This document shows positions 3,167-61,965 of a stretch of 64,000 nucleotides of DNA, in pieces (position 1 is the first letter of the stretch; the number at the start of each line of letters is the position of its first letter). A program made the position numbers and the translations under genes. The stretch is from contig JAFKGE010000026.1 of assembly GCA_017307865.1 (NCBI GenBank), positions 1 to 64,000 on the forward strand, written 5' to 3'. The notes beneath the pieces were generated by a model. That model was given only the letters and a program-made list of their open reading frames with translations, was not told the origin of the DNA and ran no database searches. This DNA comes from Burkholderiales bacterium. Its GTDB lineage: Bacteria > Pseudomonadota > Gammaproteobacteria > Burkholderiales > Burkholderiaceae_C.

Positions 3167-3192
3167 GGGGCATCTCCAATGGGTTCAGAAAA

Positions 3193-4029: not shown

Positions 4030-4084
4030 GGGGCAACCTTCGCCCTGCGGGCTGCGGTATTCACCTTCGGAACTGCTGGGCGAC

Positions 4085-25472: not shown

Positions 25473-25488
25473 GCGAGGGATAGCCCCC

Positions 25489-27108: not shown

Positions 27109-27124
27109 GGATGTGAGAAAGCCC

Positions 27125-31574: not shown

Positions 31575-32539
31575 AAACCGAGCATTCCGAACACTTCGCA
31601 TCCATAGACCGCGTGGCCCAGAGCTTCGCGGCCGTCGATTACATCGCAAGCCCTGCGATCGCCACTTCGGTCTATCTGGGTTTTCACCTCGAAAAGCCCA
31701 TCCTCATCGAAGGCCCCGCCGGCGTGGGCAAGACCGAGCTCGCCAAGAGCATGGCCGAGATTCTTGACGTTCCATTGATCCGCATGCAGTGCTACGAAGG
31801 GCTCGACGAATCCAAGGCGCTGTACGAATGGAAATACGGCAAGCAGCTGCTTTACACCCAGCTGCTCAAGGACAAGCTCGGTGAGATGATGCAGGGCGCC
31901 CGGGGCCTGGCCGAGTCCATGGACCGGCTGCACGCGCACGACGACCTGTTTTTCAGCGAGCATTTCCTCGAGCCACGCCCGCTGTACCAGGCGCTGCACC
32001 AGGAAAAAGGCTGCGTGCTGCTGATCGACGAAATCGACAAGTCCGACCCCGAATTCGAGGCCTTTTTGCTCGAAGTGCTGTCGGACTTCCAGGTTTCGGT
32101 GCCAGAACTCGGCACCATCAAGGCCAAGGTCAAGCCCATCGTGTTCCTGACCAGCAACAACACGCGCGAGATGAGCGATGCGCTCAAGCGCCGCTGCCTG
32201 CACCTGCACATCAGCTTCCCCGAACCGGCGCTCGAGCGCCGCATCCTCGAGCGGCGCGTGCCGGGCCTGTCCGACACGCTCAACCGCGAGCTGGTTGCCT
32301 TCGTCCAGGCGGTGCGCCAGCTCGACCTCAAAAAGCTCCCCTCGGTCAGCGAAACCATAGACTGGGCCAAGACGCTGCTGCTGCTCAACGCCGAGCACCT
32401 GAGCCTGGACCTGGTGCGCGACACGCTCAACGTGTTCCTCAAGTTCGAGCAGGACATCGCCACGGCGAACGAGCAAATGGGCAATCTATTGCAACAAGCC
32501 CGCAAGGACGCAGAACTGTCCCATGCAAGCCACACTTGA
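31571..32539 (+). CDS. MoxR-type AAA+ ATPase
   Basis: A 322-residue AAA+ ATPase of the MoxR group (CoxD, NorQ, GvpN relatives). Walker A is EGPAGVGKTE (residues 47-56), Walker B is VLLIDEIDK (149-157), and sensor 1 falls in VFLTSNNTRE. MoxR ATPases act with VWA-domain partners to remodel or activate client enzymes, for example inserting metal into CO dehydrogenase. The partner gene overlaps its 3' end by 17 bp. Finding the pair inside an isoprenoid operon, between a degenerate dehydrogenase and a thioesterase, suggests that a client enzyme of the pathway needs maturation. Confidence 0.87.
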   Translation: MKTEHSEHFASIDRVAQSFAAVDYIASPAIATSVYLGFHLEKPILIEGPAGVGKTELAKSMAEILDVPLIRMQCYEGLDESKALYEWKYGKQLLYTQLLKDKLGEMMQGARGLAESMDRLHAHDDLFFSEHFLEPRPLYQALHQEKGCVLLIDEIDKSDPEFEAFLLEVLSDFQVSVPELGTIKAKVKPIVFLTSNNTREMSDALKRRCLHLHISFPEPALERRILERRVPGLSDTLNRELVAFVQAVRQLDLKKLPSVSETIDWAKTLLLLNAEHLSLDLVRDTLNVFLKFEQDIATANEQMGNLLQQARKDAELSHASHT

Positions 32540-33950
32540 AGACTTTTTCAAGGCGCTGCGCGGCAGCGACCTCGAAGTGCACCTGAACGCGCAGGTCGAT
32601 GCAGCGCGCGCCGTCGAACTCGTCGGCTGGAGCGACCGCACGTTGCTGAAAAACGCGCTCGGCACCACGCTGGCCAAGACCACGGCAGACCGCGTGCTGT
32701 TCGATGAGGCTTTCGACCGCTTCTTTCGCTTCGATGCGTTCCAAAAACCGATGGGCAGCGCATCCGGCGCCCCCGGCGCAGGCCAGGCCACCTCGCAAGA
32801 CGCGGATCAAACCAAGCCTGACCAGCCAAAGGACGCGCAGCCCCAAATGGGCTCTGGCGGCCCCGGCGGCTGCCAGGGCAGCGGCGGGCAGGCGCTGTCG
32901 CAACTGCTGCTCTCGGGCGACTCGGCGGCGCTCGCCAAGCGCATGCAGGAAGCCGCGCGTGAAGTCGGCCTGACCGACATCTGGTTCTTCACGCAAAAGG
33001 GCTACTACACGCAAAAAATCCAGCAGGCCATGGGGCTGGAACTGCTCGACCGCGAAATCACCGATGCCAAGCGCCAGACCATGGCGCCCCAGCGTGCCAA
33101 AGAGCTCGAGCTCGCGCGCAAGCGCCTGTTCAACGAGGTGCGCAACTTCGTCGAGCGCAAGCTCGCGCTCTACGGCACCGCGCCCACGCGCCAGCTGCAC
33201 GACGATTTTCTGCAGACGCAAAAGCTCTCGAACATCGAAAAGCGCGACTTCGAGCGCATGCACATCATCGTGCGCAAAATGGCCAAGCGTCTGGCCGAGC
33301 GCCACGCGCGGCGCAAAAAGCAGCGCGTGCGCGGCCAGCTCGACTTCCGCAAGACGCTGCGCAAAAACGCGGCCTACGGCGGCATCCTGTTCGAAACCTT
33401 CTGGCGCACCAAGGTGGTCGATAGACCGCGCGTGATCGCCATCTGCGACGTGAGCGGCTCGGTACGCCAGTACGCGCGCTTTTTGCTATTGTTTTTATAT
33501 AGCCTGGACGAGCAGCTGAGCGGCGTGCGCAGCTATGCGTTCACCAATCACTTGGTGGATGTCAGCGACACCTTCGCGCAGCTGCCGGTCGAGCAGGCCG
33601 TGGACAAGGTCATCCAGGCCGTGGGTGGCTCGGGCACTGACTATGGCCAGACCCTGCTCGACATCGAAGAACAGCTGCTCGACCAGATCGACCGCCGCAC
33701 CACCATCCTGTTCCTGGGCGACGCGCGCAACAACCGCGGCGAGGCGCATACCGAGGTCATGCGCCTGCTCTACGAGCGCGCGCGCCGCGTGATCTGGCTC
33801 AACCCCGAGCCCACCTCGTTTTGGGGCCTGGGCGATTCGGAGATGAAGCGCTACGCGCCCTACTGCCACATCGCGCGTGAATGCAACTCGCTCGTGCAGC
33901 TCGAAAGCGTGCTCGACGCGCTGCTGCGCACCCACTCCGCCAGCGCCTGA
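32523..33950 (+). CDS. CoxE-like VWA-domain protein
   Basis: A 475-residue protein. The N-terminal 85 residues form a helical segment typical of CoxE-like proteins. There is a low-complexity Gly/Gln/Pro linker at about 75-130, and the C-terminal half is a von Willebrand A domain with the metal-ion-dependent adhesion site DVSGS (about residue 309), a Thr in GSGTDYGQTL and an Asp in FLGDARNNRG. It overlaps the MoxR gene by 17 bp, so the two are made together. It is the probable substrate adaptor for the ATPase. No molybdenum enzyme or other obvious client is encoded in the window. Confidence 0.85.
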   Translation: MQATLEDFFKALRGSDLEVHLNAQVDAARAVELVGWSDRTLLKNALGTTLAKTTADRVLFDEAFDRFFRFDAFQKPMGSASGAPGAGQATSQDADQTKPDQPKDAQPQMGSGGPGGCQGSGGQALSQLLLSGDSAALAKRMQEAAREVGLTDIWFFTQKGYYTQKIQQAMGLELLDREITDAKRQTMAPQRAKELELARKRLFNEVRNFVERKLALYGTAPTRQLHDDFLQTQKLSNIEKRDFERMHIIVRKMAKRLAERHARRKKQRVRGQLDFRKTLRKNAAYGGILFETFWRTKVVDRPRVIAICDVSGSVRQYARFLLLFLYSLDEQLSGVRSYAFTNHLVDVSDTFAQLPVEQAVDKVIQAVGGSGTDYGQTLLDIEEQLLDQIDRRTTILFLGDARNNRGEAHTEVMRLLYERARRVIWLNPEPTSFWGLGDSEMKRYAPYCHIARECNSLVQLESVLDALLRTHSASA

Positions 33951-34553: not shown

Positions 34554-36335
34554 ATGAGCAAAACCACCCTGCGCATAGGCAGCGCCTCGGGCTTCTGGGG
34601 CGACACGGAGTTTTCCGCGGCCCAGCTCATCGAGCGCGGCAACATCGACGTGCTGGTGTTCGACTACCTGGCCGAAATCACCATGTCGCTGCTCAGCCGC
34701 GTCAAGGCCAAAGACCCGGCGCAAGGCTACGCGCCCGACTTCATCAGCACCATGCGCCCACTTTTGAAAGTCATCAAGGCGCGCGGCATCAAGGTGATCG
34801 CGAATGCCGGTGGCGTGAATCCCTCGGCTTGCCGCGCGGCGCTCGTCGCGGCGGCGCAAGCCGAAGGCGTGGACCTGAAGATCGCCGCGGTGCTCGGCGA
34901 CGACCTCATGCCGCAGGTCGAGGCGCTGCGCGCCGCACAGACCAAGGAAATGTTCTCGGGCGCACCCTTCCCGCAAAAGGTCATGAGCGCAAACGCCTAC
35001 CTCGGCGCCTTCCCGATCGCTGCGGCGCTCTCCGCGGGCGCCGACATCGTGGTCACGGGCCGCTGCGTGGACAGCGCGGTCACGCTCGGGCCGCTAATCC
35101 ACGCCTTCGGCTGGAGCGCTACCGACTATGACCGCCTCGCGCAAGGCAGCCTCGCGGGCCACCTGATCGAATGCGGCACGCAGACCACAGGCGGCAACTA
35201 CACCGACTGGGAATCCGTGCCCGGCTGGGACGACATGGGCTTTCCGATCGCCGAATGCCGCGCTGACGGCAGCTTCGTCGTGACCAAGCCCGAAGGCACG
35301 GGCGGGCTCGTGTGCCCGTCCACCGTGGGCGAGCAGATGCTCTACGAAATCGGCGACCCGCGCGCCTACATCCTGCCCGACGTGGTGTGTGACTTCACGG
35401 GCGTCACGCTCACGCAGGTCGGCCCCGACCAGGTCGAAGTCAAGGGCGCGCGCGGCCGTGCCCCCACTGACCAGGCCAAGGTCAGCGTCACCTACGCCGA
35501 CGGCTTTCGCGCCATGAGCCTGTTCATGATCGGCGGCATAGATGCGGGTCCCAAGGCACACCGCGTGGGCGCCGCCATGCTCGCGCGCCTGCGCCGCTAT
35601 TTCGCGCAGCGCGGCTGGCCCGACTTCAGCGAAACCAGCGTCGAAGCCATAGGCGCCGAAGACACCTACGGCCCACATGCGCGCGCGTCCTCGCGTGAAG
35701 TCATGCTCAAAGTGGGCGTGCGCCACCCCATGAAGGACGCACTGGAGCTGTTTTCGCGTGAAGTCGCGCCACTCGCGCTGATGTCGGCCCCGGCGATCAC
35801 GGGCTTCACCGGCGGACGCCCCAAGGTGCAGCCCGTCGTGCGCCTGTTCTCGTGCCTGGTGCCCAAGGCGCAGGTGGTGACCAGCATAGACATGGGCGAA
35901 CAGACCGTGCCTGCGCCCCAGTGGAGCGGCCAGCCGTTCAACCCCGCGAGCCTGCCCACCGTCACGGGCCCGCTGCCCGCCGCCAACGCCTTTGCGCGCG
36001 GCATGCGCACCGTGCCGCTCGTCAAACTCGCGTGGGGGCGCAGCGGCGACAAGGGCGACGCGGCCAACATCGGCATCATCGCGCGCCGCGCTGAATTCCT
36101 GCCCTTCATCCGCGCCGCGCTGACCGAGCAGGCCGTGGCCGGCTGGTTTGCGCACCTCGTCAAAGGCAAGGTCGAACGCTTCGACCTGCCGGGCACGCAT
36201 GCGCTGAACTTCCTTTTGCAAGAAGCCCTTGGTGGCGGTGGCATCGCCTCCATCCGCATGGACCCGCAAGCCAAGGCCTACGCGCAGATGCTGCTCGACT
36301 TCCCCGTGCCCATCCCTGCCGAAATGGCGATCTGA
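34554..36335 (+). CDS. atuA: Acyclic terpene utilisation protein AtuA
   Basis: A 593-residue protein of the AtuA family (DUF1446). The large N-terminal domain begins LRIGSASGFWGD and contains DYLAEITMSLL, VIANAGGVNP, VTGRCVDSAVTLGPLI and CGTQTTGGNYTDW. A C-terminal domain of about 110 residues opens LVKLAWGRSGDKGDAANIGI. AtuA is required for acyclic terpene growth in Pseudomonas, but its reaction is not established. The family is the best single marker that this operon degrades isoprenoid acids. A GGAGA site lies 5 bp before the ATG. Confidence 0.88.
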   Translation: MSKTTLRIGSASGFWGDTEFSAAQLIERGNIDVLVFDYLAEITMSLLSRVKAKDPAQGYAPDFISTMRPLLKVIKARGIKVIANAGGVNPSACRAALVAAAQAEGVDLKIAAVLGDDLMPQVEALRAAQTKEMFSGAPFPQKVMSANAYLGAFPIAAALSAGADIVVTGRCVDSAVTLGPLIHAFGWSATDYDRLAQGSLAGHLIECGTQTTGGNYTDWESVPGWDDMGFPIAECRADGSFVVTKPEGTGGLVCPSTVGEQMLYEIGDPRAYILPDVVCDFTGVTLTQVGPDQVEVKGARGRAPTDQAKVSVTYADGFRAMSLFMIGGIDAGPKAHRVGAAMLARLRRYFAQRGWPDFSETSVEAIGAEDTYGPHARASSREVMLKVGVRHPMKDALELFSREVAPLALMSAPAITGFTGGRPKVQPVVRLFSCLVPKAQVVTSIDMGEQTVPAPQWSGQPFNPASLPTVTGPLPAANAFARGMRTVPLVKLAWGRSGDKGDAANIGIIARRAEFLPFIRAALTEQAVAGWFAHLVKGKVERFDLPGTHALNFLLQEALGGGGIASIRMDPQAKAYAQMLLDFPVPIPAEMAI

Positions 36336-38479: not shown

Positions 38480-38504
38480 GCCGCTTGCGGCATGACGAAG
38501 CGGC
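38480..38504. other. Hairpin in the leader before the enoyl-CoA hydratase gene
   Basis: GCCGCTT and AAGCGGC form a perfect 7-bp stem around an 11-nt loop, in the 196-bp gap between the TetR gene and the hydratase start at 38546. It has no following T-run, so it is more likely a leader structure or operator than an intrinsic terminator. The rest of the gap shows nothing I can assign. Confidence 0.3.
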
Positions 38505-38545
38505 TCAGAACCGCGCCACAATTTAACAAGAAGGAGACAGACCCC

Positions 38546-39307
38546 ATGAACAACGAACTGCTTTACGAAGTGAGCGACGGCATCGCCATCATCACCATCA
38601 ATCGCCCAGAGCGCCGCAATGCCCTGAGCCGGGCCGTGCGCGAAGGCTTTTTCGAAGTCTGGCGCCGCTTCGAAGCTGACGCCGATGCCCAGGTGGCCAT
38701 CCTCACCGGTGCGGGCGAGAACTTCTGCGCCGGCATGGATCTGGTCGAAGCGGCCGATACCCAGCTGCGCATTCCGCCGCCCGGCTTCATGGCCGTACTG
38801 GGCGATACCGTCGAGGTCACCAAGCCCGTCATCGCAGCGGTGCAGGGTTATGCCTATGCTGGCGGCTGGCTGCTGGCGCAGATGTGCGACCTGTGTGTAG
38901 CCGACGAGACGGCCAAGTTCGCCATCACTGAGGCCAAGGTCGGACGCGGGATGCCGTGGGCGGCGCCTGTCATCCACATGCTGCCGCAGCGCATTCTGAT
39001 GGAAGTCGCGATGACCGGCGACCCTCTGACGGCGCAGCGCGCCTACGAACTCGGTTACATCAACCGCCTGATGCCCAAGGGCCAGGCTCTGCAAGGCGCC
39101 AAAGAGCTGGCCGCCAAGCTCATGGCCAACGCGCCACTGACGGTGCGCGCGGCCAAGGAAATGGTCCGCATGTCCACCGAAATGGGCCGAACCGCCGCAC
39201 TACGGGCCTCCAATCGCGCGTTTGACGCCGTCTATCTCAGCGAAGACGCGCTTGAGGGGCCGCGTTCGTTCCGCGAAAAGCGCAAGCCCCAGTGGAAGGG
39301 CCGTTGA
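38546..39307 (+). CDS. Enoyl-CoA hydratase/isomerase family protein
   Basis: A 253-residue crotonase-fold protein. GENFCAGMDLVEA and QGYAYAGGWLLAQMCDL form the oxyanion hole. The first hydratase Glu is Leu (AGGWLL), while the second is kept in AITEAKVGRGMPW. Loss of one Glu is common in isomerases and in methylglutaconyl-CoA-hydratase-like enzymes, so hydration of a standard enoyl-CoA is not certain. The ATG at 38546 has AAGGAGA upstream and is preferred over 18 extra codons. The MmgE/PrpD gene follows after 1 bp. Confidence 0.85.
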   Translation: MNNELLYEVSDGIAIITINRPERRNALSRAVREGFFEVWRRFEADADAQVAILTGAGENFCAGMDLVEAADTQLRIPPPGFMAVLGDTVEVTKPVIAAVQGYAYAGGWLLAQMCDLCVADETAKFAITEAKVGRGMPWAAPVIHMLPQRILMEVAMTGDPLTAQRAYELGYINRLMPKGQALQGAKELAAKLMANAPLTVRAAKEMVRMSTEMGRTAALRASNRAFDAVYLSEDALEGPRSFREKRKPQWKGR

Positions 39308-39308
39308 G

Positions 39309-40718
39309 ATGAGCACCCTCACCGCCACACGCATTCCGCAGTCGGCTGCTGGCTTCACCCCCCCGCGCATCACGCAGGAACTGGCCGCGCGCAGCGCTGC
39401 CCTGTGTTACACCGATCTGCCCGAAGATGTGCGTCTGCGGGTCCGTCAGTGTCTGCTCGACTGGATCGGTGTGACGCTGGCTGGCGCGTGCGAGCCGCTG
39501 GTGCACATGCTTGCCGAAGAGGCGCGCGAGCAAGGCGGCCACGCCCAGGCCACGGTCGTTGGGCATGGCATGGCGACCTCGACCCGGCAGGCGGCGTTGA
39601 TCAACGGCGCTGCCTCGCACGCACTCGATTACGACGACGTCAACATGGCCTGCACCGGCCATCCCTCGGTGACCCTGATCCCGGCCTTGCTGGCCTTGGC
39701 CGAGTCGCGCGGCGTGAGCGGATGCGACTTCATGACCGCCTTCGCCGCAGGATACGAAACGATGTGTCAGTTGGGGCTGGCTACCGGTGAGGCACAGTAC
39801 GCTAGGGGATTTCACACCACGGCCACGCTGGGCACGATCGGTGCAGCCGCAGCCAGCGCACGCTTGCTGCAACTCGACGCCGACGACACCGCCAGCGCGT
39901 TCGGCATCGCCAGTACGATGGCCGCCGGGTTGAAATCCATGTTTGGCACGATGTGCAAGCCCTTGCACGCCGGCCGCGCCAGCGCAGACGGTCTGCAAGC
40001 GGCGCAGTTAGCCGCGCGTGGTTTCACCAGTTGCGCCGATGCGATTGAATGTCCGCAAGGCTTCATCGCAACGCACGGCGGCAACGCGTCACTGGAAACG
40101 GCCACGTCCGACGGTGGTTGGCACCTGCGCAACAACCTGTTCAAGTTCCACGCTGCATGCTACGGCACCCATGTCGCCATCGAAGCCGCACGCCACTTGC
40201 GCCTTCGACACGGACTGCGGCCTGAAGATGTCCGCTGCGTGATGGTGCGTGTCGGGGCCGCCAGTGAAGGTGTGTGCAACATCACCGCGCCGCGCACCGG
40301 GCTCGAGGCCAAGTTCAGCTTGCGTCATACGGTGGCGATGGCGCTGGCCGGGGTCGACACTGCTGGCATGGACAACTTTAATGACGACGCAGTGCGCAGG
40401 CCCGATGTGGTGGCACTGCGCGAGCGCGTGACCGTCGAACTCGCGCCCCAATGCCCAGGGCTGACGCTCGCTGAGGTGGTGATCGAGACCCACACCGGCA
40501 CCCTGCTGCGCCAGCGCCACGATAGCGGACATCCGGCCAAGGACCTGCACGAACAGCAGCAACGGCTCGAGAACAAGTTCCGTCATCTGGTCGAGCCGGT
40601 TCTCGACGCGTCCGAGGTTGACGAGTTGATTGACTTGGTGTGCCGGCTCGACACCCTGACTGATCTCTCACCGCTGGCAGGTATGCTGGCCCGCCGGTCG
40701 TGCGCCCGCATGCTCTGA
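39309..40718 (+). CDS. MmgE/PrpD family protein
   Basis: A 469-residue MmgE/PrpD protein. SHALDYDDVNMACTGHPSVT near residue 110 matches the substrate-binding region of the family closely, and FKFHAACYGTHVAIEA near 285 is the K-x-H-x-x-C-x-x-x-H stretch. Of the three copies this looks the most canonical. The ATG overlaps the end of the preceding hydratase region (TGAGATG), so the two form a bicistron under the TetR at 37699. Dehydratase, decarboxylase or isomerase activity on a branched dicarboxylate is possible. Confidence 0.86.
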   Translation: MSTLTATRIPQSAAGFTPPRITQELAARSAALCYTDLPEDVRLRVRQCLLDWIGVTLAGACEPLVHMLAEEAREQGGHAQATVVGHGMATSTRQAALINGAASHALDYDDVNMACTGHPSVTLIPALLALAESRGVSGCDFMTAFAAGYETMCQLGLATGEAQYARGFHTTATLGTIGAAAASARLLQLDADDTASAFGIASTMAAGLKSMFGTMCKPLHAGRASADGLQAAQLAARGFTSCADAIECPQGFIATHGGNASLETATSDGGWHLRNNLFKFHAACYGTHVAIEAARHLRLRHGLRPEDVRCVMVRVGAASEGVCNITAPRTGLEAKFSLRHTVAMALAGVDTAGMDNFNDDAVRRPDVVALRERVTVELAPQCPGLTLAEVVIETHTGTLLRQRHDSGHPAKDLHEQQQRLENKFRHLVEPVLDASEVDELIDLVCRLDTLTDLSPLAGMLARRSCARML

Positions 40719-40822: not shown

Positions 40823-41620
40823 TCATTGGTCACTGGTCGGATTGCGCTCGATACACCCCAAAAGCCGCTGCAGCCTCGCAATCGTCTCACCGCGCTCTCG
40901 CTGCTGCGGGTGGTGGCCCGCTGCCGGCAGTGCGGTCACCTCAAGCGGCATTCGTCCGTTCTGGATCAAAGAAACCGCGCTGGGGCGCCAGCCGTATTCA
41001 TCGTCGCTGCCGAACAGCGTCGCCACCGGGCAGCGCACCGCGGCAATCTCGGCGCTCATATCCCATTGCAGAGCGCTGGGGCTGGCCCAGGGCTCGTACC
41101 AGCCCCAGAACATGCTGTCGGTGTTGTCGCCATGGTGGCGTTTGAGCTTGTCGCGCAGCCCTTCGTGCTCAAAGGCGCGGCGCGCGCCGGACATGGCGTC
41201 GACCATGAACTGATCGATCGCAATGGTCGGTGAGCAGGCGAGCACGCCGCACACCAGTTCGGGATGTGCCGCCGCCGCCAGCACCGACATGGCTCCACCG
41301 TCACTGTGCCCAAACATCAGCGCCTGTGTGACGCCGAAATGGCGAAGCACCTCCCCGAGCACGGGGCCGGCTTCCTCACGCCGATAACCCAGCTCACGTT
41401 CGCCGACCAGACGCTCGGAGCGTCCATAGCCCCAACGGTCATAGGCCAGCACAGGGCAGCCGCTGGCCTCGGCCAGTGCCTGGGGCAAATCTCTCCAAGT
41501 GGTGATGCAGTCCAGCCCGCCGTGCATCATGACGATGGTCGGGCATCCAGCACCGATCTCGCCCCAGGTGGTGGCGGCGAGTCGATGGCCGCCCGCGAAC
41601 AGTTCGTGCTCTTTCATCAT
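40823..41620 (-). CDS. Alpha/beta hydrolase
   Basis: A 265-residue alpha/beta hydrolase. The oxyanion-hole motif is MMHGGLD, the nucleophile elbow GHSDGG (about residue 107), the acid Asp lies in LFGSDDEYG, and the His in AAGHHPQQ. It could hydrolyse an ester, lactone, enol-lactone or C-C bond. Start codons at 41620 and 41617 are equivalent; an earlier ATG at 41650 is less likely. It is the last gene of the minus-strand block and lies 65 bp after the frameshifted dehydrogenase, convergent with the MmgE gene across a 104-bp gap. Confidence 0.85.
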   Translation of the reverse strand: MMKEHELFAGGHRLAATTWGEIGAGCPTIVMMHGGLDCITTWRDLPQALAEASGCPVLAYDRWGYGRSERLVGERELGYRREEAGPVLGEVLRHFGVTQALMFGHSDGGAMSVLAAAAHPELVCGVLACSPTIAIDQFMVDAMSGARRAFEHEGLRDKLKRHHGDNTDSMFWGWYEPWASPSALQWDMSAEIAAVRCPVATLFGSDDEYGWRPSAVSLIQNGRMPLEVTALPAAGHHPQQRERGETIARLQRLLGCIERNPTSDQ

Positions 41621-41685
41621 GTCAATCGGTTTCTTTATTGCCCACTGCAAAGGCTTTGCATGCGTTACGCTTGGCTGGCCACAGC

Positions 41686-42917
41686 CTACAGGTCGGCATG
41701 TCCGGCCAGCAATTGGCGCGCGATGGTGCGGCGCTGGATCTCGCCGGTGCCGTCGGGAATGCGCATCACGCGCGCGAAGCGGTAGCCTTCTTCCAGACGC
41801 AGTTCGTTGGTCAGGCCCATGCCGCCGTGGATCTGGATGCTGCAGTCCATGACGCGCCCGAGCATCTCGGTCGAAAATGCCTTGACCATGCTGACCTGCG
41901 CAGTCGAGGCCTGGCCGCTGTCCAGACGCCAGGCACAGTTCTGGATCATGGCCTTGGCAGCATAGACATCCATCGCGCTGTCGGCCAGCATGAGCTGGAT
42001 CGCCTGGTGATCGGCGATCGGTACGCCAAAGGTCTTGCGCACCTTGGCGTATTCAACCGCCTGGTCCAGCGCCCAGCGCGCCAGCCCAAGGCACGAGGCG
42101 GCCATGCCCATGCGCCCGGCATTGACGCCGTCCATCGCCACAGCCAGACCACGACCGACTTCGCCAAGCCGGTATTCGTCGCGCACGCGCACACCGTCAA
42201 GCACGACAACCCCAGTGTCACCGCCTAGGTGGCCCATGGTGTTGATGACACGTGGCACGGTAAAGCCGGGGGTGCGCGTGTCCACGAAAAAGCCGGTGAC
42301 GCCGCCCTTGTGGCGCGCCGCGGCCTCGGGGTCCGTCAACGCGAACACCATCGCATAATCGGCGTACGGCGAGTTGGTGATCCACTGCTTGGTACCGGTG
42401 AGCACCCACTCATCGCCGTCGCGCACGGCGCGCGTCTTCATGCCGAATACGTCCGAGCCGGCGTCGGGCTCGCTCAGGCCGAAGCACAGGGTCTTGTCGC
42501 CGCTGGCGATGCCGTCTCGGTGGCGATCGAGCACCTCGGGGTTCAGATGCCGCAACACCGGCGATAGGCCATTGGTAAAGGGCGATGGCAGCACCACCGT
42601 CTGGACCAGCGGCTGAGCAGGGCCAACGCGGTGGTTCAGCACCTCCTGCACATGCGCCATGACCTGCGCGCCCTGCCCCCGCCGCCCAGTTTCTCGTCGC
42701 CGAACAGGGTGTAAAAGCCGAGTTCGGCCGAGCGCTTACGCACCTGTTGGCGCAGCGCCAGCACCTCCGGGACGTAGCGGCCAGTGGCGTCGAACAGGGT
42801 GCGTTCGCTGCCCAACAGGTCGTGGTGGCGTTCCTGCAGCGGCAGCACTTCACGCTCGACGAAGCGCAACACGGCCTCGGCAATGGCCACGGTATCGGGA
42901 TCGATGGTGAAGTCCAT
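41686..42917 (-). pseudogene. Acyl-CoA dehydrogenase with a frameshift
   Basis: The N-terminal part reads from the ATG at 42917 (MDFTIDPDTVAIAEAVLRF) to GDEKLGGGG, and the rest of a normal acyl-CoA dehydrogenase continues in another frame down to 41686 (SEPDAGSDVFGMKTRAV, QWITNSPYADYA, IHGGMGLTNEL, PDGTGEIQRRTIARQ with the catalytic Glu). Restoring one base at the C5 run at 42676-42680 joins the two into a full-length protein of about 410 residues with G-G-G-G-Q-G-A-Q at the seam. This is either a real inactivating deletion or a homopolymer sequencing error. The rest of the gene shows no decay. It belongs to the DUF35/thiolase/MaoC module. Confidence 0.75.
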
Positions 42918-42933
42918 GCGGGTTACCTCGACA

Positions 42934-43335
42934 CTACAGCAACCGGAACTTCGGCAGCGTCACCTCGTCGGTCACATCGTCATAGTGAACCGTCACGCGC
43001 TGGCCGATACGCACTGCCTCCACATCGCCGGTGACGATATTGGTCATCATGCGGGCACCTTCGTCGAGGTCGATCACCGCCACCACATAGGGCGCGTCCG
43101 CCTTGAAGGCGGGACCGGCCGGCCGGCGCGCGATGGTGTAGCTGTAAATGGTGCCCGTGCCACGCGCATCGACCCAGTCGACAGCGTCCGAGTGGCAGTG
43201 CGGGCACAAGGCGCGCGGATAAAAATGGTGCTTGCCGCAGTCATGGCAGCGCTTGAGGGTAAGACGGTGTTGTTTCAGGGCGTCCCAATAGGGGCGACTC
43301 TCGCCATCGATGACGGGTAGGGGTTTGTCGTACAT
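42934..43335 (-). CDS. DUF35 zinc-ribbon/OB-fold protein
   Basis: A 133-residue protein with the DUF35 architecture: an N-terminal helix (YWDALKQHRLTLKRC), a zinc ribbon CHDC-x12-CPHC and a C-terminal OB fold (GTIYSYTI, PYVVAVIDLDEG, GQRVTVHYDD). DUF35 proteins bind thiolase-fold partners; in steroid side-chain degradation the DUF35 domain of ChsH2 activates the aldolase Ltp2. The start at 43335 lies 5 bp after the stop of the thiolase-like gene, so the two are almost certainly a complex. The upstream open frame is not conserved. Confidence 0.88.
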   Translation of the reverse strand: MYDKPLPVIDGESRPYWDALKQHRLTLKRCHDCGKHHFYPRALCPHCHSDAVDWVDARGTGTIYSYTIARRPAGPAFKADAPYVVAVIDLDEGARMMTNIVTGDVEAVRIGQRVTVHYDDVTDEVTLPKFRLL

Positions 43336-43340
43336 GGTGT

Positions 43341-44510
43341 TCACTGTGTAGAGAGGATACAAGTGGCACCGCTGGAGAGCGTGCCGCCGGTGCCGTGGAC
43401 CAGCGCGGTCACGGCGTCCTGAATCTGGCGCGGGCCGCACTCGCCACGCAGCTGGCGCACCGCTTCGATCAGCAGGAAGATGCCATACATGCCGGGATGC
43501 GCGTAGGACAGTCCACCGCCGTTGGTGTTGAGCGGAAACGCCCCGCCCGGCGCGGTGCGCTGGTTGGACACAAAGGCTCCCCCCTCGCCACGCTGGCAAA
43601 AACCCAGGGCTTCGAGCGTCAGCAGCACGGTTATGGTGAACGAGTCATAGACCTCGACCACGTCGATGGCATCGTGCCCGATGCCGGCCATGGCGAAGGC
43701 GTCCCGGCTGGCCACCTCGGCGGCCGTCAGGCGCGCCAGATCCGGCATGGCGGCAATCGTCCAGTGCGTGTGCGATTCGCCGTAGCCGCGCACGTACACC
43801 GGTTTGCGCCCGAGCGCCTTGGCGTGCTCTGCCGTGGTCATGACGACCGCGCCACCACCATCAGTCACCAGGCAGGCGTCGAGCAGGTGCAACGGGTCGG
43901 AGATCATCGGGCTTTCCAGCACGTCGTCGATCGACAGCGGATCGCGCATCGTCGCGGCCGGGTTGAGCTGGGCCCATTTGCGCGTGGCCACGGCGATCTC
44001 GGCCAGTTGCCCGGACGTGGTGCCGTACTCGTGCATATGACGCATCGCCGCCATCGCGTAGCCGCCCACGGGTGTCGGCATGCCCCAGGGCGTTTCGTAC
44101 TGCATGGTCAACACCGAAGGCCGTCCGGCCAGGTTGCGGCTCATCTCGCTGCGTTGCAGACTGCCGTAGGTGATCAGCGCCACCTCGCAACGGCCGGCCT
44201 CGATGGCGGTGGCTGCGTGCGCCACATGGGCCTCGAAAGCCGACCCGCCGATGTTGGTGCCATCGACGAAGCGCGGGGTAATGCCCAGATACTCAGACAA
44301 CGTCACGGTGGGCAACTGGCCCGGACCCGGCACGCCCCACATGCCGGTGGTCAGCAACCCATCGACTTCATTCATGGCGATGTCGGCATCCTTGAGCGCA
44401 TCACGCGCGACCAGCGCCTGAGCCTGCAAGACCGACATCGGCGTGAGGGCCTTGCCATCCTTCAGCGGCAAGTCGGCGACGCCGACGATCACTGCTTCTC
44501 GCTTTTTCAT
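43341..44510 (-). CDS. Thiolase-fold protein lacking the nucleophilic cysteine (Ltp2-like aldolase candidate)
   Basis: A 389-residue thiolase-superfamily protein of the SCP2-thiolase/lipid-transfer group. The position of the nucleophilic Cys reads TNIGGSAFEAHV, with Gly instead of Cys, and the C-terminal Cys-Gly loop reads HGTGGTLSSGAT. Conserved residues remain in DGGGAVVM, YDSFTITVLL and NTNGGGLSYAHPGMYG. Without the cysteine it cannot be a normal thiolase; Ltp2-type proteins with this change are retro-aldolases acting with DUF35. The ATG at 44510 has AAGGAG upstream. It lies between a MaoC hydratase gene and the DUF35 gene. Confidence 0.85.
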   Translation of the reverse strand: MKKREAVIVGVADLPLKDGKALTPMSVLQAQALVARDALKDADIAMNEVDGLLTTGMWGVPGPGQLPTVTLSEYLGITPRFVDGTNIGGSAFEAHVAHAATAIEAGRCEVALITYGSLQRSEMSRNLAGRPSVLTMQYETPWGMPTPVGGYAMAAMRHMHEYGTTSGQLAEIAVATRKWAQLNPAATMRDPLSIDDVLESPMISDPLHLLDACLVTDGGGAVVMTTAEHAKALGRKPVYVRGYGESHTHWTIAAMPDLARLTAAEVASRDAFAMAGIGHDAIDVVEVYDSFTITVLLTLEALGFCQRGEGGAFVSNQRTAPGGAFPLNTNGGGLSYAHPGMYGIFLLIEAVRQLRGECGPRQIQDAVTALVHGTGGTLSSGATCILSTQ

Positions 44511-44570
44511 TGGGTTGTTACTCCTTGGCTGAATTGTGAATTGCATCGCTTGCGCAGCGCGCCGACTTGT

Positions 44571-45056
44571 TCAGGTCAGCGGTTTTGGGTTGGTCTGCGG
44601 CAGGAACGTAATGGTTTCGGTGAAGTCGGCAATGGTCTCGCCGCGCTGATTGATCACCAGGTGCTGCAACTCCATCAGGGTATAACCGCGCGAGGTCGTC
44701 GGAAGCAGTCGGGCTGCGCCTTCGACATGAATGGTGTCGCCTGGAAACAGCGCACCACGCAGGCGCGCCTGCACCCCCGTCATGCCCCCGAATGGACCCA
44801 CCTCGCGACCTTCCAGCACCTGATTGATGATGCCTTGTACATAAGTGGCCAGCAGCCCCATGCCGAGCGAGATGATCATGGGGCCAGGCGCGAAGCGGCT
44901 GCGATGCGCTCCGGTCATGTTCTCCCGGATGTATTCCATGTCAATGAAAAAGGGTTCATGCAATCCCACCACATTGACGAAGGTGACGATGTCCGTTTCG
45001 GTAATGGTTCGGCAGTGGGTCTTGAACCGAAGTTCTTCAGCACGCTCGGTATTCAT
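44571..45056 (-). CDS. MaoC-like hot-dog hydratase
   Basis: A 161-residue MaoC-type protein. TITETDIVTFVNVVGLHEPFFID near the N-terminus and SRFAPGPMIISLGMGLL cover the substrate tunnel, although the strict Asp-x4-His dyad of MaoC is blurred (HEPFFID). The likely role is hydration of a branched or bulky enoyl-CoA, placing a hydroxyl that the thiolase-fold aldolase downstream can use for C-C cleavage. The ATG at 45056 has AAGGAGA upstream; the longer open frame is not conserved. It is separated from the next upstream gene by a gap with an inverted repeat. Confidence 0.78.
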   Translation of the reverse strand: MNTERAEELRFKTHCRTITETDIVTFVNVVGLHEPFFIDMEYIRENMTGAHRSRFAPGPMIISLGMGLLATYVQGIINQVLEGREVGPFGGMTGVQARLRGALFPGDTIHVEGAARLLPTTSRGYTLMELQHLVINQRGETIADFTETITFLPQTNPKPLT

Positions 45057-45145: not shown

Positions 45146-46660
45146 TTACGTCCCACCGTGTGCGGCCTTGACGGCCGCACGGTCGATGCCATCGGCACTT
45201 CCCTTGGGCAGTTCCGATACAAACACCACATGCTTGGGTTTTTTGTAGCGCGCGATGCGCCCGCCCACAAACTCGATCAATGATTCAGAACTCATTGTGT
45301 GCCCCGCCTTCAGCACACAGACCGCCTTGACGGCCTCGCCCCACTGCACGTCCGGCACACCGAACACCACCGCCTGCGCCAGCGCCGGGTGTTCAAGAAT
45401 GACCCGCTCGACTTCAGCCGGGTAGACGTTCTCGCCGCCCGGCTTGATCAACTCCTTGGCCGGTGAGCGCCCGCTGTACCAGAGGTAGCCCTCGGCATCG
45501 ATGCGCCCCATGTCGCCGGTATGGTGCCAGCCGTTGCGCAGCGTGAAAGCGTTGTCTTCGTTGCGACCCCAGTAGCCCAGAAACACCATCGGTCCGCGCA
45601 CAGCGATCTCGCCGGTGGCACCGCTTGGCAGCGGACGATCCAGGTCATCCAGCACTGCGACCGTGTTCACCAGCGTGGGACGACCGGCGCTGCCGGGACG
45701 TTCATCAAAGGGTGCCAGGGTCACCGAGCCCGAGGTCTCGGTCTGGCCGTAGGCGCTCCAGAAAGTCGCGTGGTGACAACTCGTGCGCAGGCGCGCGATG
45801 GTTTCGGGCGCGTCGAGCCCCGACACCACGCGCAGGTTTGCGAGTTGGGAGCCCTGGGCCGCGGCCGCGTCCAGCAGTGCGCCGAGCATGGGAGGAAAGG
45901 TGCCGATCAGGCTGCCACCGTCCTCGTCGATATGTTTAACCAGGCTGGGCGGATCAAAACGTGTCAGCAGCAGCGTCGCCCCGCCCGCCTGCTGCGTGGC
46001 CAGCATGAAGCCGATGGCGGCCACATGAAACAGCGGCAAGACCCCCAAATTGACATCCTGCGGCATCAGTTGCCAAGCCAGTTGCGTTTGCATGCCAGCA
46101 GCGAGCAGGCCGCCATGCGAAAGCAGTGCGCCGCGCGGCCTCCCACCCACGGCAGCGGTGTGGATGATGACGAACCCACTGTCGTCGGCCACGTCTGGCA
46201 GGTCCGCCGCTGGCGCATGGGGCTCCAGATACAGCGTGCTGATGGATTGCCACGGGGCCAGTGCGGCGCCCAGCGTGTAGCGCAGCGTGTCGTCCAGGCC
46301 CTGTTGCGGCAGCAGTGCCTTGAATTCATCGGCCACGATCAGTACACGGGGTGATACATCCTCAATGACATGGGCCACTTCTTCGGCCGACAGCCGCCAG
46401 TTGATCGGCACCACGATCGCGCCCAGGTGCGCGCTGGCACCGAACAAATCAACGTATTCCAGGCAGTTGGGGGCCAGTATCGCCAACCGGTCGCCCGCAC
46501 GCACACCTGCTGCGGCCAAACCGGCCGCCAGCCGCGCCGTGCGCTCAGCGTACTGGGCGTGCGTCACTTTCTGTCCGGCAAAAAGAAAAGCTGTTTTCGA
46601 TGCGTGCAAGCGCGCGTTGCGCGCGATGAGATCGTGCAGCGTGAAAGATCGCAAACTCAT
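45146..46660 (-). CDS. ANL-superfamily acyl-CoA ligase homologue with altered ATP motifs
   Basis: A 504-residue protein with the acyl-CoA ligase fold (LPLFHVAAIGFMLA, WSAYGQTETSG, GWHHTGDMG, KELIKPGGENVYPAEVE), but its two ATP-handling signatures are changed. The phosphate-binding loop, normally T-S-G-T-T-G-x-P-K-G, reads TAAVGGRPRG. The A10 region, normally T-G-K, reads ADGIDRAAVK, so the catalytic lysine is absent at its usual place. It may be inactive, may only do the thioester half-reaction, or may bind acyl-CoA. The ATG at 46660 has AAGGAG six bases upstream. The alpha/beta hydrolase gene ends 14 bp upstream. Confidence 0.8.
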   Translation of the reverse strand: MSLRSFTLHDLIARNARLHASKTAFLFAGQKVTHAQYAERTARLAAGLAAAGVRAGDRLAILAPNCLEYVDLFGASAHLGAIVVPINWRLSAEEVAHVIEDVSPRVLIVADEFKALLPQQGLDDTLRYTLGAALAPWQSISTLYLEPHAPAADLPDVADDSGFVIIHTAAVGGRPRGALLSHGGLLAAGMQTQLAWQLMPQDVNLGVLPLFHVAAIGFMLATQQAGGATLLLTRFDPPSLVKHIDEDGGSLIGTFPPMLGALLDAAAAQGSQLANLRVVSGLDAPETIARLRTSCHHATFWSAYGQTETSGSVTLAPFDERPGSAGRPTLVNTVAVLDDLDRPLPSGATGEIAVRGPMVFLGYWGRNEDNAFTLRNGWHHTGDMGRIDAEGYLWYSGRSPAKELIKPGGENVYPAEVERVILEHPALAQAVVFGVPDVQWGEAVKAVCVLKAGHTMSSESLIEFVGGRIARYKKPKHVVFVSELPKGSADGIDRAAVKAAHGGT

Positions 46661-46674
46661 GGCATGCTCCTTGT

Positions 46675-47640
46675 TCAATTTCCACCCGCCAAGGCGTGCG
46701 TAGGCGGCATCACTTCGTGCAGAAAATCCACCACACTGGCCACGAAGGCGTCATTGGCATCGCCGGCAATCATGTGGCCCGCCCCCTTCAGGTCGACAAA
46801 GCGCGCCCGCGGCAGGGTTTGCACCAGGGCGCGCGCATCTTCTTCGGATATGACGTCGCTACGCTGACCACGCAGCAGCAGCGTGGGTGCCTGCAGTCCG
46901 CGCAAGGCCCGCTCATAGCCATCCGGGTCGCGGCGGTGATTGTGGTTGGCTTCGCTCATCAGGCGCGGGTCCCAATGCCACACCCAGCGGCCTTGCGCAT
47001 TGAGGCGCAGGTTTTTCTTCAGTCCCTCGATCGGGCCGTCCATGGGGCGGCCACGGTAGGCGGCAATATGCAGCGCGGCCTCTTCGAGTGTTGCAAATCC
47101 ATCGGGCTGCGCCCGCATGAAATGCACGATGCGCTCGACGCCGGCTTCTTCCATGCGCGGCGCAATGTCCACCAGCACCAGCGCGTTGATCGGTGGCGCG
47201 TCAGCGCGACCGACTGCGGCCATGCTGATGAGGCCGCCGAGCGATGCTCCCACCACGGCCAGCGGTGTCCCCAGTACGCGCCAGATGCAGCACATGCACT
47301 CGGCAAGGGTCTCAATCCGGTAATCGCCATTGGCCGCCCAGGCGCTGTCACCATGCCCCGGCAGATCCAGGGCGACGGTACGCCAGCCCGCCGCGCCAAG
47401 GGTCTGCGCGGCGCGGCCCCAGGCATGGCGCGTTTGCCCACCGCCGTGCAGTAGCAACACCGTTGGCGCGCCAACCGGCCCATACATGTCGGCCACCAGG
47501 ACACCACCGTCCAGGCCGGGAAACTCTCGTCGCTCGCAACCACTCACACGGAATCCTTCCATGGCCTTCGCACTTGCGACGGCGTTGATGAATTTTCCAA
47601 AGCGTCCTCCTGATTCCTTGTTCTGGTTCGCAGACGACAT
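46675..47640 (-). CDS. Alpha/beta hydrolase
   Basis: A 321-residue alpha/beta hydrolase. VLLLHGGGQTRHAWG is the oxyanion motif, ALDLPGHGDS the following strand, GASLGG the nucleophile elbow (about residue 155), the acid lies in LLRGQRSDVI and the His in KGAGHMIAGD. It is distinct from the hydrolase at 40823. An ATG 26 codons in (47562) is an alternative start, since the first residues look non-conserved. Together with the altered ligase 14 bp downstream it may process an ester or thioester of the pathway. Confidence 0.83.
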   Translation of the reverse strand: MSSANQNKESGGRFGKFINAVASAKAMEGFRVSGCERREFPGLDGGVLVADMYGPVGAPTVLLLHGGGQTRHAWGRAAQTLGAAGWRTVALDLPGHGDSAWAANGDYRIETLAECMCCIWRVLGTPLAVVGASLGGLISMAAVGRADAPPINALVLVDIAPRMEEAGVERIVHFMRAQPDGFATLEEAALHIAAYRGRPMDGPIEGLKKNLRLNAQGRWVWHWDPRLMSEANHNHRRDPDGYERALRGLQAPTLLLRGQRSDVISEEDARALVQTLPRARFVDLKGAGHMIAGDANDAFVASVVDFLHEVMPPTHALAGGN

Positions 47641-52830: not shown

Positions 52831-54846
52831 TCAGTTGTCCTCAATGTCCATGACCACCAGCACATCGCCACCGCGCACCGCATCGCCGGTGCGGCAGCGC
52901 AGCTCGCTGACCCGGCCCGCGGCGGGCGCGCTGATCGTGTGCACCATTTTCATGGCTTCCATTTGCACCAGCGTATCGCCCGCATTCACCGTCATGCCCA
53001 CGCTGGCTTGCACTAGCGTCACCAGGCCAGGCATGGGCGCGAGCAGGCGGCTGCCACCCCGCTCGTCTGCAGCCGCCGCGCCGGTGAGCGCGCGCTGCCA
53101 GCGGTCGAGCCGGCGCCAGGTGCGCGTGCGACCGGCGCCGGCCAGCCACAGACGTTCGCCCTCGCTGGCATGCCGTTCCAGTGCCACCATGAAGCGGGTC
53201 GTCACGCCCTTGTGCCGCAATTCCAGGGTGTCTCCGACCAGCGTCGCCGCAACCCTCTTTTCCAGTTCGCCGACGCGCACGCGCCAGCCTTCGCCCTCCC
53301 GCGACACGCTGACCTCGTGCACGCAGCGGTGCCCGTCTTCGAGCAGCACCCGCGTGCCGCCTGCGCCGCCGCCGGGCACGCGCCAGGCCCCGAGCGATTG
53401 CCAAGCCGAGCGCCCGACCGAGGCAGCCTGCGTGGCCAGCACGCCGTGCAGCGCTGCAGCGGCGATGGCCAGCCCGTCGTCTTCGCGCGGCTGCCAGCCT
53501 GCGGGGAAAGCACGCGCGATGTAGTGCGTACTGAGCCTTTGTGCAAAGTGGTCGTGGCTCAGCAGATCGGCCAGGAAACCGAGGTTGCTCTGCACGCCGA
53601 GCAGCACCGTGTCGTCCAGTGCGGTGGCGAGCCGTCGCGCTGCGGTCGGCCGGTCATCGGCATGGGCAATCACCTTGAGCAGCATCGAGTCGTAATAAGG
53701 GGTGACCCGGCTGCCGGTGCGCACACCGCTGTCAACCCGGACGCCCTCGCCGTGCGGCTCGCGGTAGCCGACCACGGTGCCGATCTCGGGCGCGAAATCG
53801 GCCGCTGGATTTTCCGCGCAAACGCGCACCTCGATCGCGCAGCCGCGCTGCGACAGCGCTGACTGACTGAAGCCGAGTGCTTCACCGGCGGCCACCCGCA
53901 ACTGCCATTCGACCAGGTCGATGCCACAGGTCTGCTCGGTCACCGGGTGCTCGACCTGCAGCCGGGTGTTCATTTCCAGAAAGAATGTGTCACCGCTGCG
54001 GCTGTCGTGAATGAACTCGATGGTGCCTGTGCTGTCGTAGCCAATGGCACGACCCATCGTCAGCGCGTGGGCAAACAGGGCCTCGCGCACAGCCGGCGAC
54101 AGGTGTGGCGCCGGCGCTTCCTCGATCACTTTCTGGTGGTTGCGCTGGATCGAACACTCGCGCTCGAACAGGTGCACCAAATGCCCGTGCTTGTCGCCCA
54201 GCAACTGCACCTCGAGGTGGCGCGGCTCGTCCAGGTAGCGCTCCAGCAGCACACGGTCATCACCGAACGACGCCTGGGCCTCACGCCGCACCGTGTCCAG
54301 CGCGGCCGTGAATTCACCCGCGCTGCGCACCACCCGCATGCCCTTGCCGCCGCCACCGGCCGAGGCCTTGATCAGCACTGGATAGCCCACGTCACTGGCT
54401 GCGGCCTGCAAGACCGCGCTGTCCTGATCGTCCGCATGGTAGCCAGGCACCACCGGCACGCCGTGCGCCATCGCGATGCGTTTGGATTCGATCTTCGACC
54501 CCATGCGCCGGATCGCCTCGCGCGAGGGGCCGACGAAAATGAGCCCTGCCGCTTCGCAGGCATCGATCAGGGCCAGGCTTTCCGACAGGAAGCCGTAGCC
54601 CGGATGAATGGCCTGCGCACCGGCGGCACGCGCCGCGGCCACGATCGCCGCGGCATCCAGGTAGCTGCGCGCGGCCTCAGACGGGCCAATGCGCACGGCG
54701 GTATCACACTGGGCCACATGCAGTGCTTCGCGGTCCGCGTCGGCGTACACCGCCACGGTTCGCAAACCCATGCGGCGCGCGGTGCGTGCAATGCGGCAGG
54801 CAATCTCGCCGCGGTTGGCAATCAGCAGCGTGTCAAACATAGTCAT
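52831..54846 (-). CDS. Acyl-CoA carboxylase biotin carboxylase/BCCP subunit
   Basis: A 671-residue alpha subunit. It has a biotin carboxylase domain (DTLLIANRGEIACRIARTAR, KASAGGGGKGMRVV, EMNTRLQVEHPVTE), a middle BT domain and a C-terminal biotinyl domain with the lysine in MEAMKMVH (Val where Glu is usual). It partners the carboxyltransferase at 55678, with the hydratase gene between them. The ATG at 54846 has TGAGG 5 bp upstream. With the HMG-CoA-lyase-type gene the set fits the leucine/isovalerate (Liu) pathway or a longer isoprenoid version. Confidence 0.9.
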   Translation of the reverse strand: MTMFDTLLIANRGEIACRIARTARRMGLRTVAVYADADREALHVAQCDTAVRIGPSEAARSYLDAAAIVAAARAAGAQAIHPGYGFLSESLALIDACEAAGLIFVGPSREAIRRMGSKIESKRIAMAHGVPVVPGYHADDQDSAVLQAAASDVGYPVLIKASAGGGGKGMRVVRSAGEFTAALDTVRREAQASFGDDRVLLERYLDEPRHLEVQLLGDKHGHLVHLFERECSIQRNHQKVIEEAPAPHLSPAVREALFAHALTMGRAIGYDSTGTIEFIHDSRSGDTFFLEMNTRLQVEHPVTEQTCGIDLVEWQLRVAAGEALGFSQSALSQRGCAIEVRVCAENPAADFAPEIGTVVGYREPHGEGVRVDSGVRTGSRVTPYYDSMLLKVIAHADDRPTAARRLATALDDTVLLGVQSNLGFLADLLSHDHFAQRLSTHYIARAFPAGWQPREDDGLAIAAAALHGVLATQAASVGRSAWQSLGAWRVPGGGAGGTRVLLEDGHRCVHEVSVSREGEGWRVRVGELEKRVAATLVGDTLELRHKGVTTRFMVALERHASEGERLWLAGAGRTRTWRRLDRWQRALTGAAAADERGGSRLLAPMPGLVTLVQASVGMTVNAGDTLVQMEAMKMVHTISAPAAGRVSELRCRTGDAVRGGDVLVVMDIEDN

Positions 54847-54853
54847 CTTGACC

Positions 54854-55651: not shown

Positions 55652-55677
55652 GGAACAGGTCTCTGAGTGGACGGGGT

Positions 55678-58232: not shown

Positions 58233-58250
58233 CGCTGCCATCTCCTTCGA

Positions 58251-60309: not shown

Positions 60310-60323
60310 GGTTTGCGTCCTGG

Positions 60324-61931: not shown

Positions 61932-61965
61932 TTGCGTTCTCGCACCAATTAGCAATGGAAAGTCA

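Follow-up and report, generated by a model that had tools for sequence, protein, structure and literature searches.

Organization of the gene cluster

The window analysed here, a stretch of 64,000 nucleotides (positions 1–64000 of contig C32) from a Burkholderiales genome of 3.9 Mb and 100% completeness, carries on its minus strand an operon-like run of six genes (46678–40823), one of which encodes a thiolase-fold protein, hereafter THL, that is the subject of the present study and is predicted to be a retro-aldolase. The run begins with an AMP-forming acyl-CoA ligase (45146–46678; Pfam AMP-binding, 222.9 bits) and a MaoC-fold (hot-dog) protein of 161 residues (44571–45056), which was identified by phmmer, alignments, a structural model and Foldseek and is without the Asp/His dyad of MaoC hydratases. 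THL itself (389 residues; 43341–44510) was recognized by Pfam (Thiolase_C_1, 207.9 bits), NCBIfam (PRK06158), residue alignment, its model and Foldseek, and is followed by a DUF35 protein of 133 residues with a zinc ribbon and an OB fold (42934–43335), identified by Pfam and PDB relatives and encoded by a gene of its own apart from that of the MaoC-fold protein. The run is completed by a frame-shifted acyl-CoA dehydrogenase (41686–42917; N part 42636–42917 and C part 41686–42660), seen by Pfam in the C part and in a three-frame view, and by an alpha/beta hydrolase at the downstream end (40823–41650), which was identified by Pfam and holds an equivalent position in the related loci L041–L045. 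From ligase to hydrolase, the gaps between the genes are 89, 60, 5, 16 and 35 bases. The four genes from the MaoC-fold protein to the dehydrogenase had been read before, from the sequence alone, as a module resembling the side-chain aldolase system of steroid degraders, and they do lie side by side on that strand, separated by 60, 5 and 16 bases.

Fold and active site of THL

An AlphaFold2 model of THL built from a 32-sequence alignment had a pLDDT (predicted local distance difference test) of 89.4 and a pTM (predicted template modelling score) of 0.91, with residues 59–63 and 125–143 poorly defined. Foldseek against the PDB placed 4u4e first and the steroid aldolase complex Sal–Shy(DUF35) (9myr) second, followed by the Pyrococcus thiolase 7yvy at ranks 3–5 and by Ltp2–ChsH2(DUF35) (6ok1) at rank 6. 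A scan for relatives matched 589 stretches, 566 of which were confirmed and the best 80 kept, so that counts out of 80 below describe the nearest relatives only. The tree and the residue counts were based on 102 rows, THL included, besides the references; they were drawn from an unthinned table of 128 hits by omitting ten loci that repeated others, 15 near-identical Roseobacter-type loci, identical sequences and hits that did not span query residues 95 to 340. A quick maximum-likelihood tree (107 rows) placed THL in a clade of 90 (89 loci rows plus 4u4e) with an SH-aLRT (Shimodaira–Hasegawa-like approximate likelihood-ratio test) support of 96 and left Ltp2, Sal, BbsB and 7yvy outside it; the deep branching order is uncertain because of long branches, that of Ltp2 among them. 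Members of the clade come from Pseudomonadota, Chloroflexota, Actinomycetota and further phyla. THL scored 491.1 bits against the NCBIfam model PRK06158, above its cut-off of 421, whereas a Sal orthologue reached 271 bits.

The sequence-only reading had described THL as a thiolase-fold protein with Gly in place of the nucleophilic Cys. This was confirmed by a MAFFT alignment, in which the Cys column of two Cys thiolases from the same genome corresponded to Gly89 of THL. Gly was present in that column in 100 of the 102 rows, the remaining two having Cys and Ser. Further along, THL has the motif Y288-D-S290-F, where aligned thiolases read HDCF, HDAF or NEAF. When aligned by phmmer with the solved aldolases, Tyr288 matched Tyr294 of Ltp2 and Tyr302 of Sal, Ser290 matched His296 and Cys304, and His338 matched Tyr344 and Gln352 respectively. 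Catalytic roles for these Ltp2 and Sal residues, and the replacement of the thiolase Cys by Gly in Sal, are described in the portion of PMC12329534 consulted. Every one of the 89 loci rows in the clade, that of THL among them, has Gly89, a Tyr at position 288 and His338, the motif being YDSF in 44, YDAF in 43, and YDHF and YDNF in one each; Gly89, YDSF or YDAF, and His338 occurred together in 91 of the 102 rows. With respect to L041, the nearest row in the tree, the ratio of non-synonymous to synonymous substitution rates (dN/dS) of THL was 0.05. Together with the Gly in 100 rows, this value and those of 0.04 for DUF35 and 0.10 for the MaoC-fold protein argue that the exchange of Gly for Cys is not due to chance.

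To judge from these residues, THL would retain the aldolase base, and its candidate acid would differ, being the His of the thiolase GHP motif. The absence of a nucleophilic Cys, the Tyr of the YDxF motif and the paired DUF35 gene are features by which THL resembles retro-aldolases of the Ltp2/Sal type, and we consider it probable that THL is an aldolase in nature. Thus the proposed likeness to the steroid aldolase module stands as far as the kind of protein is concerned (Gly89, YDSF, the DUF35 partner and the Foldseek matches), but not in the details of the site, where Ser290 and His338 replace the residues of the known aldolases. THL was not assigned to either characterized group: it has YDSF and His338 rather than the YDHF and Tyr344 of Ltp2, which its clade excludes, and it has neither the YDC motif of Sal nor Gln at the position of residue 352, and lies in a separate clade.

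Public records label such genes acetyl-CoA acetyltransferase or thiolase, and this annotation, the retained His338 of the GHP motif and three conserved Cys residues (Cys108, Cys213 and Cys305) would suit a thiolase or Claisen enzyme that depends on CoA and has a different nucleophilic residue. However, the nucleophilic Cys is Gly89, the second Cys of SCP2-type thiolases (in HDCF) is Ser290 and the His of HDCF is Tyr288. On these residues an ordinary thiolase was rejected, and the two catalytic Cys and HDCF of an SCP2-type thiolase are likewise absent; moreover, the window contains an ordinary Cys thiolase elsewhere (22075–23283). We therefore regard a thiolase or Claisen activity of THL as very improbable indeed.

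The DUF35 partner

The DUF35 gene had been read as coding for a zinc-ribbon protein, which agrees with its matches to two ChsH2-type Pfam domains, OB_ChsH2_C (84.7 bits) and zf-ChsH2 (57.7 bits), both above their cut-offs. Among solved structures, the DUF35 subunits that accompany Sal and Ltp2 (9myr_B and 6ok1_B) come closest to it, and the ribbon residues Cys30, Cys33, Cys44 and Cys47 were invariant across four sequences. In 77 of the best 80 of the 566 confirmed loci, THL has a DUF35 gene no more than 300 bp away, and two of the three without one (L054 and L070) end at or inside the place where it would be expected. THL and DUF35 are predicted to form a complex.

The MaoC-fold protein and the dehydrogenase

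The MaoC gene had been taken to encode a hydratase, and in this respect the sequence-only reading was not supported. In Pfam the protein reached only 21.3 bits, to FAS1_DH_region (cut-off 22). It aligned by phmmer with 4ffu and 1q6w, and Foldseek of its model, which is of moderate quality (pLDDT 73.8, falling below 50 over residues 31–44 and 46–55 and so weak in the active-site stretch), returned 4ffu (E 2e-8), 1q6w and 4w78, i.e. a hot-dog fold. At the positions of the Asp/His dyad it has Leu32 and Phe37: the motif reads GLHEPFFID, compared with GDFFPHHMD in 4ffu, GDDYWIHTD in a relative of Shy and GDYNPLHAE in a two-domain MaoC protein on the same contig. The change was common to all nine aligned relatives, and a hydratase function is thus unsupported by the residues of the protein. 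Comparison by hhalign of a shallow profile of the MaoC-fold protein with single MaoC sequences gave no useful confidence. The MaoC domain of ChsH2 likewise has no dyad and pairs with the catalytic ChsH1, according to the sections of PMC11321319 consulted. No ChsH1-like catalytic partner was identified adjoining the MaoC-fold gene. The protein may therefore be a hydratase with a new active site, for which the conserved His33-Glu34 would be candidates, or a non-catalytic partner.

The acyl-CoA dehydrogenase predicted from the sequence is present and adjacent, but it is not one intact frame. It extends over two frames, with a one-base difference in a G/C run when its DNA is aligned with that of L041 and L044. 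The N part alone matched nothing in Pfam, and the L041 dehydrogenase is an open frame of 410 residues. No second close copy was found in the genome, the next best match being 37–38% identical. Unless the shift is a sequencing error, the dehydrogenase step may here be broken or taken over by another dehydrogenase. A shifted frame in this strain, together with the N-terminal remnant in Polaromonas sp. JS666, would suit a relict, i.e. an operon that is decaying and whose genes no longer act together. We consider this improbable, as dN/dS was 0.04–0.10 for THL, DUF35, the MaoC-fold protein and the C part of the dehydrogenase, the two dehydrogenase parts, judged from hit coordinates, share a frame in the 11 near loci in which both occur, and the shift lies within a G/C run, a context prone to sequence errors.

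Gene company, conservation and spread

Carboxylase and lyase genes had been noted beside the module, and they are indeed in the same island. Two biotin carboxylase/carboxyltransferase pairs, a crotonase and an HMG-CoA (3-hydroxy-3-methylglutaryl-CoA)-lyase-type gene were identified by Pfam on the minus strand (52831–62018), the lyase-type gene (57279–58241) also scoring 254 bits against NCBIfam PRK05692 (cut-off 246), and PDB relatives include the beta subunit of methylcrotonyl-CoA carboxylase. A third carboxyltransferase/biotin carboxylase pair (25276–29086; Pfam) and an AtuA-family protein (34554–36335; Pfam AtuA, 506 bits) lie on the plus strand, and the island also holds several acyl-CoA dehydrogenases, crotonases and thioesterases. 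A Phe/Gly rule that separates geranyl- from methylcrotonyl-CoA carboxylases is given in the part of PMC4673880 consulted. Within the AtuA segment, a MoxR-type AAA ATPase and a CoxE-like VWA (von Willebrand factor A) gene (31571–33950) were seen, which adjoin AtuA in the Ramlibacter locus L048 too. The window also contains three MmgE/PrpD genes (38492–40718 and 255–5449), one of them adjoining a crotonase.

We analysed this company further in a set of 12 genomes, made up of the present genome and 11 loci from the nearest group, which numbers 16 (at least 82% identity); L041, L047, L053, L054 and L070 were omitted as short or redundant. AtuA and at least one carboxyltransferase were found on the THL contig in all 12, the nearest carboxyltransferase at about 11–55 kb and AtuA at about 6–140 kb from THL, although a shared contig is less telling in G062, where it measures 3.05 Mb. 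The coexistence is thus conserved at the scale of the island and is not an accident of this window. That it would be a new combination, as the sequence-only reading had it, agrees with the open-access literature searched; it is, however, not peculiar to this window, and recurs in Burkholderiales and in one metagenome-assembled genome (MAG) of the Nevskiaceae. Genes next to THL were located by tblastn with a limited set of probes, which divergent neighbours may escape. Where the flanks of nearest-group loci were complete, 11 of 12 had a ligase no farther than 5 kb from THL and 10 of 12 a dehydrogenase no farther than 1.5 kb. In the group of 65–82% identity, mostly of the Roseobacter type, the count was 11 of 13 loci each for a MaoC gene (within 3 kb), a dehydrogenase (within 1.5 kb) and an ADP-forming CoA ligase (within 5 kb), and in this group the unit occurs without carboxylases within 10 kb.

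From 42.9 to 63.9 kb, comprising the operon and the carboxylase/lyase segment, almost every gene of the window is matched in turn on plasmid 2 of Polaromonas sp. JS666 (NC_007950.1; L037, L127 and L128), a predicted conjugative plasmid whose THL is 92% identical; the plasmid differs by an extra ligase before THL and by a truncated dehydrogenase. AtuA was not among the annotated genes in the three stretches of the plasmid that were viewed. No THL above 57% identity was found in 28 other genomes of the same genus, several of them incomplete. The lack of a closer THL in these genomes and the near-identical cluster on a plasmid make horizontal spread likely.

Plasmid 2 was also seen to carry a cytochrome P450, a pyrroloquinoline quinone-dependent dehydrogenase and a flavoprotein that we read as a probable Baeyer–Villiger monooxygenase. 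The contig of the Polycyclovorans MAG (G070:C28) holds THL, AtuA and several carboxyltransferases as well as three long matches to this flavoprotein and a P450 that is 74% identical to that of JS666.

These genes bear on a different substrate for the same chemistry, i.e. retro-aldol cleavage of a (1-hydroxycycloalkyl)acetyl-CoA to a cyclic ketone and acetyl-CoA, the ketone feeding a Baeyer–Villiger monooxygenase. We take this cleavage to be EC 4.1.3.35, presumably a ketone-forming lyase step known only from biochemistry, and we know of no gene for it. The JS666 flavoprotein (329078–330697; annotated as a NAD(P)/FAD-dependent oxidoreductase) lies about 10 kb from THL round the circle, the P450 (54179–55435) is on the same plasmid, an annotated cyclohexanecarboxylate-CoA ligase is directly upstream of THL, and matches of more than 400 bits to the flavoprotein were found in eight of the 12 genomes. 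On the other hand, the present genome has no match to the flavoprotein (E<=1e-40) or to the P450 (E<=1e-60), the P450 was found in three of the 12 genomes, the extra JS666 ligase is absent here, in L041 and in L044, and the company of carboxylase, HMG-CoA lyase and AtuA points to methyl-branched chains. Ring substrates are a serious rival, which we nevertheless judge unlikely.

A true side-chain aldolase of steroids or bile acids, i.e. a Sal or Ltp2 orthologue in a steroid degrader, is a further explanation. Sal and Ltp2 are the closest characterized aldolase folds, and the company of ligase, dehydrogenase and MaoC genes is like that of steroid operons. Matches to the HsaD model below its cut-off were found in nine of the 12 genomes, the best, with 243.5 of the 400 bits needed, in the present one; no match was above it, but neither was any in a control genome, so that this search was without a positive control. 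As markers we used genes of a steroid-type cluster in G032, which also holds a protein scoring 563 bits against a 3-ketosteroid dehydrogenase model (cut-off 789). Its Sal orthologue (E<=1e-80) was found in one of 13 genomes, G032 itself, and in none of the 12 of the set, and so was a neighbouring oxygenase-like gene (E<=1e-40), which is Rieske/KshA-like by reading and matched no family model above cut-off; ring-cleavage genes beyond HsaD were not searched. Taken together with the separate clade of THL, its different second catalytic residue and a DUF35 ribbon with four Cys, unlike the Cys3His1 site of Shy, this makes a steroid aldolase highly improbable.

Two more DUF35/THL pairs were observed in the same genome. 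The second, with YDAF and His, lies outside the window (G000:C32:69761–71332; L121:5761–7332) and is 93% conserved in G062 and G063; it is preceded by three dehydrogenases and a 2,4-dienoyl-CoA-reductase-type gene and followed by a short-chain dehydrogenase/reductase gene and a two-domain MaoC gene, an order that matches JS666 except for an outer-membrane transporter gene. The third, on contig C53 at about 17.8–19.3 kb (L122), has YDCF and a Ser next to the usual Gly, and is near a further biotin carboxylase/carboxyltransferase set. With these pairs one could imagine several aldolase reactions in succession, as with steroids, on which Sal and Ltp2 work one after the other.

Proposed function

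We propose, with a probability of about 0.45, that THL and DUF35 form a retro-aldolase complex with a variant acid–base site, whose substrate, in a catabolic island not meant for steroids, is a 3-hydroxyacyl-CoA that is branched and perhaps tertiary. The ligase would activate a branched carboxylic acid, the acyl-CoA dehydrogenase would form the 2-enoyl-CoA, and a hydratase would add water at C3 to give a 3-hydroxyacyl-CoA in which C3 is probably fully substituted and, for that reason, could not be oxidized to a 3-keto thioester. Tyr288 of THL would then take the proton of the C3 hydroxyl, the C2–C3 bond would break, and the acyl-CoA enolate would be protonated by an acid, most likely His338, alone or with Ser290. 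The products would be a ketone and acetyl-CoA or propionyl-CoA, and free CoA would not be consumed. Cleavage of a tertiary alcohol has a precedent in Ltp2, which cuts a tertiary C17 alcohol. Going by the gene company, the substrate could be a methyl-branched, isoprenoid-like tertiary alcohol, an assignment that we put forward with some reserve, and the enzyme would serve the island as a carboxylation-free shortcut beside the route of carboxylase and HMG-CoA-lyase-type enzyme for beta-methyl-branched acids.

Several observations weigh against this proposal. To our knowledge, no activity is known for any member of the THL clade, and the solved member, 4u4e, is titled merely a putative thiolase. 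The acid residues of Ltp2 and Sal are both unconserved in THL, so the chemistry is not simply transferable. Of the three Cys residues conserved in the clade (Cys213 in 89, Cys305 in 85 and Cys108 in 82 of 89 rows), Cys213 is also Cys in Ltp2, Cys108 in Sal and Cys305 in both. No enzyme of the module was identified for the hydration, its MaoC protein being without the hydratase dyad, and by tblastn a MaoC gene was within 3 kb of THL in only five of the 12 near loci. In L046–L050, L052 and L055 none was found directly beside THL, where the probes could miss a divergent one; in L049 and L055 a MaoC gene is present farther away. The dehydrogenase has its frame shifted here and is no more than an N-terminal remnant in JS666. 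Finally, within 10 kb of THL a biotin carboxylase was found in one, a carboxyltransferase in none and AtuA in two of the 12 near loci, and each of them in none of the 13 loci of the 65–82% group. The link to isoprenoids can thus be drawn for the near group only, and there over tens of kilobases.

The residues contradict the labels thiolase and acetyltransferase. If the members of the clade are aldolases, a large family is misnamed, and bacteria would possess an ATP-saving route around the beta-methyl branches of isoprenoids and branched hydrocarbons; there would also be gene candidates for ketone-forming lyase steps and for biocatalysts that, used in reverse, form carbon–carbon bonds.

Comparison with known systems

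Sal–Shy(DUF35), the bile-acid aldolase of Comamonas testosteroni (PDB 9MYR), shares with THL the thiolase fold, Gly at the nucleophile position, a YD-x-aromatic motif with the catalytic Tyr and a DUF35 partner, with 35% identity in the Foldseek alignment. Sal acts on a steroid and has YDCY and Gln352, whereas THL has YDSF and His338. According to the parts of PMC12329534 and PMC11321319 consulted, Shy joins DUF35 to a MaoC domain that is active, and its zinc site is of the Cys3His1 type; here, the ribbon has four Cys. Ltp2–ChsH2(DUF35) of Thermomonospora curvata (PDB 6OK1) shares the fold, has Gly-Gly at the nucleophile position, the catalytic Tyr and a four-Cys zinc DUF35, but differs in its YDHF motif and Tyr344. 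ChsH2 combines its DUF35 in one protein with a MaoC domain that is non-catalytic and forms a pair with ChsH1, whereas DUF35 and MaoC are separate genes here. The closest solved protein, 4u4e of Sphaerobacter thermophilus, belongs to the THL clade, has the same Gly, YDSF and His, and is 53% identical.

BbsAB (benzoylsuccinyl-CoA thiolase) and PhlABC (an acyltransferase) are complexes of a thiolase-fold protein with DUF35, as predicted for THL and DUF35; they are named after thiolase and acyltransferase activities, and BbsB has HDAF where THL has YDSF. The Atu/Liu pathway for acyclic terpenes and leucine (geranyl- and methylcrotonyl-CoA carboxylases, LiuE of the HMG-CoA-lyase type and AtuA) shares gene families with the present island. 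Both would handle beta-methyl-branched acyl-CoA and cleave a tertiary 3-hydroxyacyl-CoA, as proposed here for THL, but in Atu/Liu CO2 is added first and cleavage by an HMG-CoA-lyase-type enzyme follows. The sections consulted of a review of that pathway (PMC4097962) name no thiolase/DUF35 aldolase, and in the open-access literature searched we found such aldolases for steroids only.

The fold, the exchange of Gly for Cys and the pairing with DUF35 are thus already known from the steroid aldolases. New with respect to the open-access literature, as far as it was searched, are the clade with His338, the unfused DUF35 alongside a dyad-less MaoC protein, and the setting. We suggest tentatively that THL represents a third type of acyl-CoA retro-aldolase built on the thiolase fold, in which a Tyr would act as base and the His retained from thiolases as acid (YD[S/A]F...His), and which would serve non-steroid branched acids and stand, in Burkholderiales and Nevskiaceae, beside a route of the Atu/Liu type.

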